This document shows, one piece after another, positions 8,889 to 13,271 of a stretch of DNA of 34,710 bases (within the stretch, counting starts at the first letter, position 1; the number at the start of each line of letters is the position of its first letter). The stretch comes from Acidobacteriota bacterium (GTDB lineage Bacteria; Acidobacteriota; Thermoanaerobaculia; Multivoradales; JBCCEF01): assembly GCA_039028635.1 (NCBI GenBank), contig JBCCHV010000069.1:1-34710 (forward strand), written 5' to 3'. The notes under the pieces were generated by a model, which saw only the letters and a list, made by a program, of their open reading frames with translations, was not told where the DNA came from and ran no database searches. The position numbers were made by a program, and so were the translations under genes.

Positions 8889-9764
8889 TCACTCCTCCGC
8901 CATTAGCAGGGCGCGCTGTTCGGCCAGCGCCCGCAGCTCGTCCTCCGGCAACTCCGGATACTGCGGATCGAGGCGCTCGAGAGCATCCACCACGATCTCG
9001 GCCACCCGCAGGCGCATGTAGGGCTTGTTGTCGGCAGGGATCGCATACCACGGCGCCCACGGCCGAGACGTCTCGTTGATGACGTCCTGGTAAGCCGCCA
9101 TGTAGTCGTACCAGTAGCCCCGTTCGCGCACGTCGCTGGCGGAGAACTTCCAGTTCTTCTTGGGATTGTCGATGCGCGCCAAGAACCGCCGACGCTGTTC
9201 TTCGCGCGACACGTTGAGCCAGAACTTGAGCACCAGACAGCCATTGCGGGCCAGGTGCTCCTCGTGCTGACGAATCGAGGCGAAGCGCTCCGGCCAGCGC
9301 TCCTCGGGCGAGATCGGGCGCGGCAGGCGCTGCCCGCCGAGATACTCCGGATGCACCCGCACCACCAGCAGCTCTTCGTAGTAGCTGCGGTTGAACACCC
9401 CGATCCGTCCCCGCTCGGGCAGACGGCGGGTGGTGCGCCAGAGGAAGTCGTGATCGAGCTCTTCGGCCGACGGCTGCTTGAAGCTGCTGACCTGAAAGCC
9501 GGCCGGATTGACGCCCGTCAGGACGGCCCGGATGGTGCCGTCCTTGCCCGCAGCGTCCATCGCCTGGAAGACCAGCAGAACACTCCAATGGTCTTCGGCG
9601 TAGAGCCGGCGCTGCAGCTCGGCGAGCCGTTCGACCTTGTTCGCCAGCCGGCGCTTGCTCTCTTTGCGGCCCGGCGCCGTGGCCGGCGGAGCCGTCGGCG
9701 AGCGCTCGAGCTCGAAGGAACCGTCGAAGGGGGTTCTATAGGGACTATCGATGGGATCGATCAT
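8889..9764 (-). CDS. ppk2: PPK2-family polyphosphate:nucleotide phosphotransferase
   Basis: PPK2 enzymes use polyphosphate to phosphorylate nucleoside mono- or diphosphates in the cytoplasm. The 291-residue protein has the Walker A form DAAGKDG (70-76) after VFQAM, and the TGVNPAGF and SSFKQPSAEELDHDFLW blocks. A Walker B-like FNRSYYE is at 124-130. The lid module RRRFLARIDNPKKNWKFS lies around 191-208. Single-domain length and the DAAGKDG form are like class III enzymes that accept both AMP and ADP, but class is inferred. The start is ATG with a GGGGAG about 13 bases upstream. No ppk1 or ppx gene lies nearby. Confidence 0.92.
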   Translation of the reverse strand: MIDPIDSPYRTPFDGSFELERSPTAPPATAPGRKESKRRLANKVERLAELQRRLYAEDHWSVLLVFQAMDAAGKDGTIRAVLTGVNPAGFQVSSFKQPSAEELDHDFLWRTTRRLPERGRIGVFNRSYYEELLVVRVHPEYLGGQRLPRPISPEERWPERFASIRQHEEHLARNGCLVLKFWLNVSREEQRRRFLARIDNPKKNWKFSASDVRERGYWYDYMAAYQDVINETSRPWAPWYAIPADNKPYMRLRVAEIVVDALERLDPQYPELPEDELRALAEQRALLMAEE

Positions 9765-9972
9765 CGAAACGGATTCTCCCCTCTCTTGGACGACCGTTCA
9801 ACCATGACAGCCGTACCCATGTGCGTACCGTAACCAGATCTGCTATCTTAAAGGACGAGCGAGGCCAAGCAGGGGCCCAGGCTCTCGCCTATCTCTTGAG
9901 GAAAATTACACCACCGCCGTCGGCCGGGGACCGGCAAGTGTCTCTCGCCGCCTTTTAATGCCAGGAGGATCC

Positions 9973-10653
9973 ATGAAGAGCTGCCGGACGATTTGCTTTT
10001 GCCTCATCGCCTGCCTCCAAGTGGTGGTTTTCGTCGCCCCCGCGCTCGCCGCGAAGGTCGCCGACCTGCCCACCCTCACCAGCTATCACAGTGACCCCTT
10101 CACCGCCGAGGAGCAGGATGCCGTTTTCGCCTGGATCCTCGACCACCCGAAGGTCCAAGCTCTGATCGGCGACGACCGTACCCGCGTGCTGCGCGGTGGC
10201 TCCGACTACCCCAAGGGACCGGACGGCCCCTTCCGCCGGGCCACGATGTTCGTGCGCAACTACGACCAGGGGTTGACCCACGAGATCACCGTCAACCTCG
10301 ATTCTGGTGAATTGCAGCATCGCAACGACCACGGCCTGATCCAGGCCAACCGCGCCGAGATCGACGCCGGCATGGCGATCATCCTCGCCGATGAGGGTCT
10401 GCAGCACTACGCCAACGACCCGGACCACGTCCTCAACGGCGCCTTCTTCCTGCGCAGCCCCTACGAAGACGATCCCTGCAGCCGCAACATCTGCTTGATC
10501 TACCACTTCGTCGACACCAAGAGCACCGTCTCGCGTTCCTCCCAGCGGGTGCTCGTCGACCTGACCCGGCAGGAGATCGCCGACGGGCGGTACAACTTCT
10601 CGGCGGTGTGGGACAGCGAATACGTCAAGAGCTCCGCCACGGAGGGCAACTGA
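9973..10653 (+). CDS. Secreted protein resembling copper amine oxidase N2/N3 domains
   Basis: The 226-residue protein has a signal peptide ending ...VAPALA (about 1-27). Residues 34-115 (HSDPFTAEEQDAVFAWI ... FRRATMFVRNYDQGLTHEITVNLDSGEL) resemble the N2 domain of copper amine oxidases. Residues 130-205 (ending RVLVDLTRQEI) resemble N3. These are non-catalytic domains that pack on the catalytic barrel. The start at 9973 is set by AGGAGG 4 bases upstream; an in-frame ATG 15 bases earlier would precede that site. The next gene, which carries a copper amine oxidase-like catalytic domain, begins 2 bases after the stop. The most economical reading is that the two exported chains together form a split amine oxidase-like protein. 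Homology of this half is weaker than for the partner. Confidence 0.6.
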   Translation: MKSCRTICFCLIACLQVVVFVAPALAAKVADLPTLTSYHSDPFTAEEQDAVFAWILDHPKVQALIGDDRTRVLRGGSDYPKGPDGPFRRATMFVRNYDQGLTHEITVNLDSGELQHRNDHGLIQANRAEIDAGMAIILADEGLQHYANDPDHVLNGAFFLRSPYEDDPCSRNICLIYHFVDTKSTVSRSSQRVLVDLTRQEIADGRYNFSAVWDSEYVKSSATEGN

Positions 10654-10655
10654 GC

Positions 10656-11774
10656 ATGAAATCGAAGACGATCCTCACCGCTGCAGTCCTGGTGACCGCT
10701 CAGCTTGCCCTCTTCGCGCCGACCGCCGAGGCCGGTGGCGGCTGCGCCAACTCGGTGACCTGGCCGTCGGTCAGCCCGGTGTGGGAGTTCTGCTTCCGCG
10801 CCCCGAACAACAGCACGCCGGCCGGCAACGGCTCGGGCCTCGAGATCTACGACGTCAAGTGGAAGGGCACCACCATCCTCAAGACGGCGCACATCCCGAT
10901 TCTCAACGTGCGCTACGCCCCCAATGGCTGCTTCGGTGATCCGTGCTACCGCGACTGGTTCGACGAGAACCGTCGTTTCGACTGCGCCCCGAGCTCCGGC
11001 GGCATCTGCACCGGCACCAGCACGCCGGCGTCCACCGTCTGCAATAACCCGGGTTCGGACTCGGGCTCCTTCTCCGGCGTCGCCGTCGAGGACTTCGGCA
11101 CCAGCCTGCGGCTGACCGCCCAGACCGCCGCCGGCTGGTATCGCTACATTCCGTGGTACGAGTTCTACGCCGACGGGCGCATCGAGGCGCGGGCCAGCTT
11201 CACCGCCGTCGATCACCCGTGCGAGATCGAGGATCACAACCACCACGCCTACTGGCGCTTCGACTTCGACATCAACGAAACCGCCGACAACTGGGTCGAC
11301 GAGGTCGTGGGAGTCACGCCGACGCGCGTCGCCACCGAGAAGTCCTGGGTCGACACCAGCCCGGCCCGCAGCCAGTGGATCGTCGGCAGCAACAGCAGCG
11401 GCCTCACCGTCGAGGTGACCCGCAACGCCGGCGACCAAGGCGCTGGCGATCCTCTGCTGGTGCCCAACGACTTCCCGATGGCGGACGGCTGGGTGCTGGC
11501 CTACAAGTCCAACGAGCTGACGGACTTCAACGGCTTTTCGACCAATCCGTCGGTATGTCGCGCCAACCTCGACGACTTCGACACCAACGAAAGCGTCAAC
11601 GGCACGGACATCGTGCTGTGGGTCCACGCCGGCAGCTTCCACGAGTCGCAGCCGGGCGGCGACAACATGCGCTGCACCGATGCCGGCCCGACCCTGCGGG
11701 TGATCGAAGGTCCGATGTTGGTCGACGGCTTCGAAACCGGCGACACTTCGCGCTGGACTTCCGAGACCCAGTAG
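10656..11774 (+). CDS. Secreted, reduced copper amine oxidase catalytic domain-like protein
   Basis: The 372-residue protein starts with a signal peptide ending ...APTAEA (1-26). It then reads like a shortened copper amine oxidase core. GLEIYDVKWKGTTILKTAHI (61-80) matches the strand before the active site, and DWFD puts Asp103 at the catalytic base position. Tyr162 in GWYRYIPWYEFYADGRIE aligns with the tyrosine that becomes topaquinone. HNH (194-196) supplies two copper ligands and DIVLWVHAGSFH (318-329) the third, His329. The residues beside the tyrosine are W and R instead of the usual Asn and Asp/Glu, so cofactor formation is uncertain. The C-terminus DGFETGDTSRW resembles tails common on secreted proteins of related bacteria. 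The start 2 bases after the preceding stop, with GGAGG before it, implies coupling to the N2/N3-like gene. Confidence 0.68.
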   Translation: MKSKTILTAAVLVTAQLALFAPTAEAGGGCANSVTWPSVSPVWEFCFRAPNNSTPAGNGSGLEIYDVKWKGTTILKTAHIPILNVRYAPNGCFGDPCYRDWFDENRRFDCAPSSGGICTGTSTPASTVCNNPGSDSGSFSGVAVEDFGTSLRLTAQTAAGWYRYIPWYEFYADGRIEARASFTAVDHPCEIEDHNHHAYWRFDFDINETADNWVDEVVGVTPTRVATEKSWVDTSPARSQWIVGSNSSGLTVEVTRNAGDQGAGDPLLVPNDFPMADGWVLAYKSNELTDFNGFSTNPSVCRANLDDFDTNESVNGTDIVLWVHAGSFHESQPGGDNMRCTDAGPTLRVIEGPMLVDGFETGDTSRWTSETQ

Positions 11775-11800
11775 CTCTCGGGATTTCGGCTCGTAGGATG

Positions 11801-11834
11801 ACGCCCGAGGGTTCGCCCTCGGGCGTTTTTCTTT
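11801..11834 (+). terminator. Strong intrinsic terminator after the amine oxidase-like pair
   Basis: ACGCCCGAGGG (11801-11811) and CCCTCGGGCGT (11816-11826) form a perfect 11-bp stem with a stable TTCG tetraloop. A T-rich tail follows (TTTTTCTTT). It lies 26 bases after the stop codon and ends transcription of the two-gene unit before the convergent DUF418 gene. Confidence 0.9.
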
Positions 11835-11859: not shown

Positions 11860-13146
11860 CTAGTCCCGACGCCGCATCGGCTGCAAGCGACCGTAGGTCA
11901 GACTGCGCCACAGCCACTCCGCCGGGCCGAAGCGAAAACGCTCCAGCCACCAGGCCGAGAACACCAGCTGAAAGAGCAGCACCAGGACCACCACCAGGGC
12001 CTGGCCGCTGCGCTCGACGGAGCCGAACCACCCCAGGCCGGTGCCGTAGAAGATCAGCGTGCAGATCACCGACTGGCCGAGGTAGTTGGTGAAAGCCATA
12101 CGGCCGGCCGCCTGGAAGAGCCTGCGCCCAGGAAAGACGGCGGCGGCACCGACGATGATCCCGAGATAGGCGGCCGCGGTGAACAAGCTGGCGAAGTAAT
12201 TCGGCAGGCTGCCGAAGAACATCGACCACTGCCAGGCCCAGCCAGCCTCGAAGTTCTTGACGACACCCCAAGCAGCCAGCGGGACACCCACCGCGAGGCC
12301 GACCAGCGCCAGCCCGCGGTAGAAGCGCCGCGACCGCGCCGCGGAGAGCACTCCGAGCTTGAACAGCGCCATCCCGATCAACATCAGGCCACCGGCGCGC
12401 CACATCGTCCAGAAGAGAAATGCCGGCACCTGCAACTGGAAGGCATCGTCGTTGCGCGCCGGAGCCTGCTCTAGCCAGTTGCCCCGCATCGCCTCCAGCT
12501 CGCTCTCGATCTCCTGCGGCGGCGGTGCCCAGCGCTGCCCGGTGCTGTCCAGAGACTCGGCGGGCCAGTGAGGAATCGAGAAGGCGCTGAGCACGTTCAG
12601 AATCACCGGTACCATCAGCACCAAAGCCCCCACGATCAGAAGCGTGCGCGGCGATCGCCGCCGTAGCGGAAACACCAGCAGGCCGCAGAGGGCGTAGGTG
12701 ACCAGGATGTCCCCGGCCCAAATCACATAGGCGTGAATCAGACCGAAGACCAGCAGCCACAGCATCCGCCGACCGTGAATCTTCCAGGGACTGCCACCGC
12801 GGGCCTCGACGCGCTGCGCCACCAGCACCAGCCCAGCGCCGAACAGGAGCGAGAACAGCGACATGAACTTCTGGTCCGCCAACACATGGCTGAACACCCA
12901 CACGGCGTAGTTGAGGCCGGTGAGATCGCCGTAGGCGGTGGGGTTGAAATAGGCCGCCTGGGGCATCGAGTAACTCTGGATGTTCATCACCAGAATGCCC
13001 ATGACGGCGACGCCGCGAAGCAGGTCGAGGGAGCGGATGCGCTCGCCGCGCTGCACCGGCTCGGCACGCTCCTGGGCCCCGGTTTCGGCCGCGGCATCGG
13101 ACGCCGCGGGATGGTCTTCGCTTGGCTCATGGATCGCTTCCGTCAC
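11860..13146 (-). CDS. DUF418 multi-spanning membrane protein
   Basis: The 428-residue protein has a short charged N-terminus, then RGERIRSLDLLRGVAVMGILVMNI (in sequence about 33-56) opening the first membrane helix. This opening is typical of DUF418 and related acyltransferase-like membrane families. About ten hydrophobic segments follow. The C-terminal DUF418 part carries the signature GRMAFTNYLGQS (about 346-357). Function is not established for the family. The GTG at 13146 is chosen because GGAGG lies 5 bases before it. A longer reading to 13269 would reach the start of the divergent nadE and add a low-complexity leader. It ends facing the terminator of the amine oxidase-like unit. Confidence 0.85.
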   Translation of the reverse strand: MTEAIHEPSEDHPAASDAAAETGAQERAEPVQRGERIRSLDLLRGVAVMGILVMNIQSYSMPQAAYFNPTAYGDLTGLNYAVWVFSHVLADQKFMSLFSLLFGAGLVLVAQRVEARGGSPWKIHGRRMLWLLVFGLIHAYVIWAGDILVTYALCGLLVFPLRRRSPRTLLIVGALVLMVPVILNVLSAFSIPHWPAESLDSTGQRWAPPPQEIESELEAMRGNWLEQAPARNDDAFQLQVPAFLFWTMWRAGGLMLIGMALFKLGVLSAARSRRFYRGLALVGLAVGVPLAAWGVVKNFEAGWAWQWSMFFGSLPNYFASLFTAAAYLGIIVGAAAVFPGRRLFQAAGRMAFTNYLGQSVICTLIFYGTGLGWFGSVERSGQALVVVLVLLFQLVFSAWWLERFRFGPAEWLWRSLTYGRLQPMRRRD

Positions 13147-13271
13147 CGCCCCTCCTCCCGAGAACGTCCCGCTGGGCCGCTCTCCAAGACACGGAAATCG
13201 CCCTCCGCTGGCGAGCCAGGAGCTCGCCCGTACGGATCTGGTAGGGTCCGAGGAACCCCAGGACGACACCG

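Follow-up and report, generated by a model that had tools for sequence, protein, structure and literature searches.

Copper amine oxidases (CAOs) containing topaquinone (TPQ), such as AGAO, ECAO (TynA), HPAO, and VAP-1, are recognized by the Pfam core model PF01179 together with the N2 and N3 models. According to passages of a 2012 review (PMC3382800), all the CAOs whose structures had been solved by that year are homodimers of single 70–80 kDa chains, and the tyrosine from which the cofactor derives is embedded in the consensus T/S-X-X-N-Y-D/E, the Asn residue preceding it being called strictly conserved. Mutants at both flanking positions are described in the same passages: in HPAO-1, the replacement of this Asn by Ala leaves 5–10% of TPQ, and that of the Glu following the tyrosine by Gln makes TPQ formation tenfold slower (PMC3382800); part of another paper describes the N381A variant of AGAO as 160-fold slower (PMC9491219).

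The locus that is the focus of the present analysis, contained in a window of 34,710 nucleotides (the whole stretch of DNA that was analysed) from an Acidobacteriota bacterium, codes for a pair of proteins sharing with these enzymes the core fold, the three His residues, and the precursor Tyr, as well as the Tyr at the VPY position, probably the base Asp (by alignment), and N2-N3-like domains. The canonical enzymes, however, are composed of one chain, whereas here there are two, of 226 and 372 residues instead of a 70–80 kDa subunit, the N2-N3-like domains being encoded by a separate upstream gene; moreover, the canonical N-Y-D/E-Y is replaced by W-Y-R-Y. Since the pair departs both from the consensus and from the one-chain layout, it is not classified here as a canonical TPQ CAO. 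An open-access literature search, judged mostly by titles and abstract openings, brought up no publication dealing with split CAOs or with a W-Y-R-Y branch.

Organization of the Locus

The genes for the N2-N3-like subunit (gene 1) and for the core subunit (gene 2) are separated by 2 bases (10654–10655) and are read in different frames (see Table 1). Judging from the GGAGGG sequence located inside gene 1, translation of gene 2 may be coupled to that of gene 1. The long open reading frames on either side (8889–9764 and 11860–13269) are found on the opposite strand, an arrangement suggesting an operon of two genes. A search for sigma-70-like promoters between positions 9700 and 12000 gave none; gene 2 is followed by a strong terminator-like hairpin, one of five such sites found in the whole window, where 1.3 were expected. 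Compared with their counterparts in another genome of the same genus (G060), gene 1 displays 60% identity and a dN/dS of 0.42, gene 2 78% identity and a dN/dS of 0.28, and a neighbouring open reading frame, over 210 codons, a dN/dS of 0.19; both genes of the pair are real genes under purifying selection.

The core subunit also carries a C-terminal tag, DGFETGDTSRWTSETQ; the FADGFESGDTSAWS-like pattern occurs 29 times in the genome, its reversed version not once, and in 19 of the 20 loci read (L162–L181) it is found at the C-terminus, 15–28 residues before the stop. It is possibly a sorting or surface-anchoring tag.

Table 1: Features of the two-gene locus, in window positions. Residue counts refer to 88 aligned rows (80 loci and 8 from the class; four genes are present twice, once per collection).
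Feature	Position	Strand	Basis
Gene 1 (P0001), putatively exported N2-N3-like subunit	9973..10653	+	ATG 9973 to stop 10653; profile homology
Gene 2 (P0002), putatively exported CAO core subunit	10656..11774	+	ATG 10656 to stop 11774; PF01179, predicted model
Shine-Dalgarno-like AGGAGGA ahead of gene 1	9963..9969	+	Read from the sequence
Shine-Dalgarno-like GGAGGG for gene 2, within the 3' end of gene 1	10641..10646	+	Read from the sequence
Signal-peptide-like stretch of gene 1, residues 1–26, ending in APALA	9973..10050	+	By eye
Signal-peptide-like stretch of gene 2, residues 1–26, ending in PTAEA	10656..10733	+	By eye
Tyr87, column of the canonical Tyr (VPY) hydrogen-bonded to TPQ O4 (Y284 in AGAO)	10914..10916	+	Y in 86/88 rows
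Asp100, probable general base	10953..10955	+	Conserved; canonical base column in the 50-row alignment
Asp103, base of the earlier note	10962..10964	+	Poorly kept
W161-Y162-R163-Y164, Y162 being the TPQ-position tyrosine	11136..11147	+	W 88, Y 87, R 88, Y 88 of 88 rows; on GNYDY of AGAO
His194 and His196, first two copper-ligand positions	11235..11243	+	87/88 and 88/88 rows; alignment to AGAO
His329, third copper-ligand position	11640..11642	+	80/88 rows
C-terminal tag of gene 2	11724..11771	+	29 genomic matches to the pattern
Intrinsic terminator-like hairpin and T tail, 3' of gene 2	11800..11827	+	12 pairs, 9 of them G-C

The Core Subunit

The earlier note on this DNA had read gene 2 as the catalytic core of a CAO, a reading that is upheld by both profile search and structure prediction. 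Gene 2 matches Cu_amine_oxid (PF01179) with an E-value of 1.4e-8 and 34.5 bits, above the curated cut-off of 27; the same model matches seven of the eight proteins of the family alignment A1 (at E up to 1), and its cut-off is exceeded by all seven single-chain relatives scanned. A six-frame search of the organism's own genome with PF01179 gave no match at E 0.001, although the protein scan had matched gene 2, a miss that reflects the strong divergence of the latter. When gene 2 alone is compared with the sequences of solved structures, the top rows are unrelated proteins (E 0.0042 and worse), CAOs appearing only at 0.31 to 0.38; with a profile of six sequences, the first 34 rows are all CAOs, AGAO being found at 1.6e-8. 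In this profile alignment GWYRY falls on GNYDY of AGAO, H194 and H196 on its HQH pair, and H329 on the third ligand, so that each of the three copper-ligand positions has its counterpart by alignment.

The AlphaFold2 model of gene 2, built from 61 sequences, has a pLDDT of 83.9 and a pTM of 0.85. All 50 Foldseek and all 50 VIA matches listed for it are CAOs, including the rows of PPLO, a CAO despite being named a lysyl oxidase; the best VIA match, among the matches listed, is 1avk (Z 25.6, rmsd 3.8, 296 residues aligned), and the D4 beta-sandwich fold is present in the predicted model. By homology and predicted fold, gene 2 is a CAO core.

In the lysyl oxidase (LTQ) family too, copper and a Tyr-derived quinone are employed in amine oxidation; gene 2 gave no row with the lysyl oxidase model PF01186 at E up to 10, a range in which the HMMER filters drop most matches above about 0.1. 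According to the review cited above, LTQ-containing LOXL proteins share no homology with TPQ CAOs (PMC3382800).

The N2-N3-Like Subunit

With gene 1 alone, database searches were of little help: its sole Pfam row is DUF4179 (E 0.14, under the cut-off), NCBIfam likewise gave nothing over cut-off, and the sequences of solved structures returned two unrelated rows only, at E 1.5 and 1.7. The Pfam N2 and N3 models were not found in gene 1, in the W-Y-R-Y-type (W-type) partners of L140, L027, and L021, or in the single-chain relative P0005, and a comparison of profile with profile was therefore necessary. The family of 12 partners matches the canonical N2-N3 stretch, defined as the region that begins 390 residues and ends 150 residues ahead of the cofactor Tyr in 10 canonical CAOs, with E 2e-7 (reversed control 0.71), and the N-terminal half of 68 single-chain relatives with E 5.6e-10 (reversed control 0.36); the latter in turn matches the canonical N2-N3 stretch with E 1.8e-6 (reversed control 0.75). 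On the strength of these profiles gene 1 is homologous to the N2-N3 domains of CAOs; the N2/N3-like character attributed to it earlier thus stands by profile–profile comparison but not by the Pfam N2 and N3 models.

The Active Site and the W-Y-R-Y Motif

All the positions listed in the earlier note (Asp103, Tyr162, His194, His196, and His329, with W161 and R163 flanking the tyrosine) are present in gene 2; one of the roles assigned there should nevertheless probably be revised. Asp103, proposed as the general base, is Asp in only 11 of the 88 rows, against 86 of 88 for Asp100. In a joint MAFFT alignment of 50 rows (10 canonical CAOs, 5 relatives in which N usually precedes the Tyr, here called N-Y-type, and 35 of W-type), it is Asp100 that lies in the column of the canonical base, where Asp is found in 10/10 canonical, 4/5 N-Y-type, and 33/35 W-type rows; the two W-type exceptions are the paralogues L013 and L014. 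HHalign, applied to W-type against canonical sequences without the intermediate group, chose another register, with E104 and not D100 opposite the base. The assignment of Asp100 is strengthened by the fact that the paralogues lose it together with the third His, and this alignment evidence indicates that the general base is probably Asp100 rather than Asp103.

Among the eight rows without His at position 329, four (L004, L022, L024, and L043) have a His directly before the aligned residue; the others are L072, a truncated gene, L098, and the decayed paralogues L013 and L014. These paralogues belong to a second split pair of the same genus, found at 1483–2583 on the minus strand of L013 (G000:C53, the organism's own genome) and in L014 (G060:C35). 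Both cores have lost Asp100 and the third His, and L013 has also lost the cofactor Tyr, now Ser; both keep the upstream partner gene, and, as far as these residues tell, they likely represent a pseudoenzyme pair. In three other W-Y-R-Y relatives (L098, L136, and L139), Arg is found at the first and third His positions (by eye in L136 and L139); a subgroup with such residues could not, as it appears from the alignment, hold copper in the usual way.

The most unusual and most interesting feature of the family is the invariant W-Y-R-Y. In all 88 rows the consensus around the precursor tyrosine is altered at both flanks, N being replaced by W and D/E by R. As the flank mutants of HPAO-1 are impaired, functional TPQ cannot be taken for granted when W and R occupy these positions: either TPQ is made with another set of helper residues, or the cofactor itself is different. 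The former option is preferred here, because the base, the quinone-holding Tyr, and the copper ligands are kept; TPQ would then be formed with different helpers in the W-Y-R-Y family.

Distribution and Evolution of the Two-Chain Layout

One scan of genome contigs yielded 113 confirmed relatives, 80 of which were kept. Their hosts include Acidobacteria, Rubricoccaceae and other Bacteroidetes-labelled bins, Bacillota, Actinomycetota, and Chloroflexi, together with Pseudomonadota, Geobacter, Nitrospira, and an Omnitrophota bin. Ten of the 80 are split, 67 look single-chain (an open frame of at least 190 residues precedes the core), and three (L067, L071, and L073) are cut or shorter in that region. 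Within the class, a clear relative (E 1.6e-40 or better) is found in six of 148 genomes, five split and one single-chain; within the phylum (297 genomes), 17 are matched by the family profile, a number that also counts canonical CAOs, and the partner profile matches at least five, one of which (G214, 5.2e-5) is probably due to chance, this count being a lower bound in that the partner of G216 was missed, and a direct scan of its locus L140 gave 1.6e-10.

The two-gene pair proved to be conserved in this survey: in 15 of the 15 W-type split cores read, coming from more than one phylum, a partner gene is located upstream on the same strand, and the split cores whose start was read each have their own N-terminal signal-like stretch. 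Twelve of these partners were used to build the partner profile, and the other three match it at 2.4e-10 to 5e-11. The proposal of the earlier note that N2/N3-like domains and core reside on two coupled exported chains is supported by profiles, predicted model, and 15/15 pairing.

Single-chain W-Y-R-Y relatives (e.g., P0005 of L006, and those of L023, L026, and L082) share with the pair the RDW, GWYRY, and HxHH motifs, the third His, and the small size, but have the N2-N3 part fused to the core, in roughly 510–600 residues by open frame. The model of P0005 (543 residues; pLDDT 89.6, pTM 0.89) displays two alpha/beta stretches before the core, and its superposition on residues 10–616 of AGAO (Z 26.2, rmsd 4.1, 433 residues aligned) comprises N2, N3, and core together. 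As regards the shrunken core described earlier, the shortening itself is confirmed (residues 19–353 of the gene 2 model against 229–618 of AGAO, that is, about 335 against 390 residues), but the single-chain relatives are equally small; the small core is common to a wide single-chain family and is not peculiar to the split form.

A second split lineage, of N-Y type, is represented by the core-only CAO-like genes of L141 (G217), L122 (G060), and L007/L008 (G082/G081). It shares with the W-type pairs an upstream N2-N3-like gene and a core-only gene, but N precedes the Tyr in all but one of the four cores compared, S taking its place in the remaining one, and N or V follows the Tyr; in the 50-row tree this lineage branches with the canonical CAOs, apart from the W-type. 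Each N-Y-type core is preceded by a separate gene, which in L007 and L008 is cut by the locus end. Three aligned N-Y-type partners match the canonical N2-N3 stretch with E 1.4e-10, in a run made without reversed control, and the W-type partners with E 5.7e-10 (reversed control 0.51). In L007/L008, two N-Y-type cores are found in tandem, the second within a much longer open frame.

A single fission of a one-chain W-type gene is one possible origin of the split. In the tree of W-type sequences only, a branch (support 100/98) separates the 67 single-chain rows from a side made up of 12 split rows plus the two paralogues. Once canonical and N-Y-type outgroups are added, the split rows of W-type form a grade, with weak support (81/42); their grouping as one clade is not rejected (p-AU 0.257). 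The placement of all split forms, W and N-Y, on one side of a branch is rejected with p-AU 0.0165, for a group that was named after the tree had been seen and with long branches present (L122 and L140). The free 50-row tree needs two changes between one chain and two, and the two-chain layout has probably been gained or lost at least twice.

No neighbourhood conserved through the family was found among the flanking open-reading-frame clusters and the neighbours scanned. Among the 25 largest clusters, from a clustering in which shadow frames were retained, those with more than five loci belong to Nonomuraea and its close relatives; one Bacillota locus, L038, is also a member of the largest cluster and of a smaller one. 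A Pfam scan of 20 neighbours from 14 loci found, once each, a galactose-oxidase-like protein (L077), a lysyl oxidase (L094), and a DUF6345 protein (L032); L022 and L043, two related loci, have a short-chain dehydrogenase gene upstream. The neighbourhood was considered as a clue to the substrate and set aside, recurrent neighbours being too few to argue from. A graspetide group is said, in part of one paper, to co-occur with a copper amine oxidase (PMC13097080).

Possible Roles of the Pair and Alternative Explanations

The reading that we favour, with a probability of about 0.6, is that the pair is a two-chain exported relative of CAOs, whose subunits assemble and bind copper at three His residues. 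Each chain would be exported via its own signal peptide; the N2-N3-like subunit and the core subunit would then assemble, in the periplasm or outside the cell, into the equivalent of one CAO monomer, and the assembled unit would probably pair as other CAOs do. Copper would be bound by His194, His196, and His329, and quinone formation and amine oxidation may be carried out by the pair. Homology places the pair within the CAO superfamily, and we infer that it works like a CAO.

A different chemistry on the same fold, in which W and R block TPQ or give another cofactor derived from the Tyr, and in which something other than a simple primary amine serves as substrate, appears to us unlikely. Such a copper protein would agree with the invariance of W and R (88/88) in an otherwise retained active site, a combination suggestive of a selected change and not of decay, and with the impairment of TPQ formation when either flank is mutated in a known CAO, as given in passages of the review (PMC3382800); lowered biogenesis, however, is not absence, and the base Asp and the quinone-holding Tyr are retained, as expected for the same reaction. 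That the fold could be retained for binding or for a structural role without catalysis is illustrated by the paralogue of the same genome, which keeps its partner although Ser has replaced the Tyr and both Asp100 and the third His are gone; gene 2, on the contrary, keeps every catalytic position and both genes of the pair are under purifying selection, so that a pseudoenzyme or structural protein is an improbable description of this pair.

Two further explanations concern the pairing itself. Two frames that differ and lie 2 bases apart might result from a frameshifted single-chain gene or from an assembly error, an origin which we consider next to impossible: it is refuted by the same two-gene order in 15/15 split cores from more than one phylum, and the split cores whose start was read carry a signal-like stretch of their own. 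The lack of any Pfam match over cut-off would allow gene 1 to be regarded as an unrelated exported chaperone or metallochaperone serving gene 2; this is very improbable, given the profile homology of its family to the canonical N2-N3 stretch and to the single-chain N-terminal half (controls 0.71 and 0.36), and given that the single-chain forms carry the N2-N3 half covalently.

Concluding Remarks

Taken more broadly, these observations would describe a large bacterial branch of CAOs in which W-Y-R-Y replaces N-TPQ-D/E-Y, the cofactor being made or used differently, in which part of the members consist of two separately exported subunits, and in which the change between one chain and two occurred at least twice; as a whole, this proposal is advanced tentatively. 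Expression of a core-only chain, either together with its N2-N3 partner or by itself, would reveal the contribution of the N2 and N3 domains, a question hard to ask in single-chain enzymes, and the W-Y-R-Y family, otherwise complete, would represent a natural test of the roles of the flanking residues in topaquinone formation, with no need for mutants.
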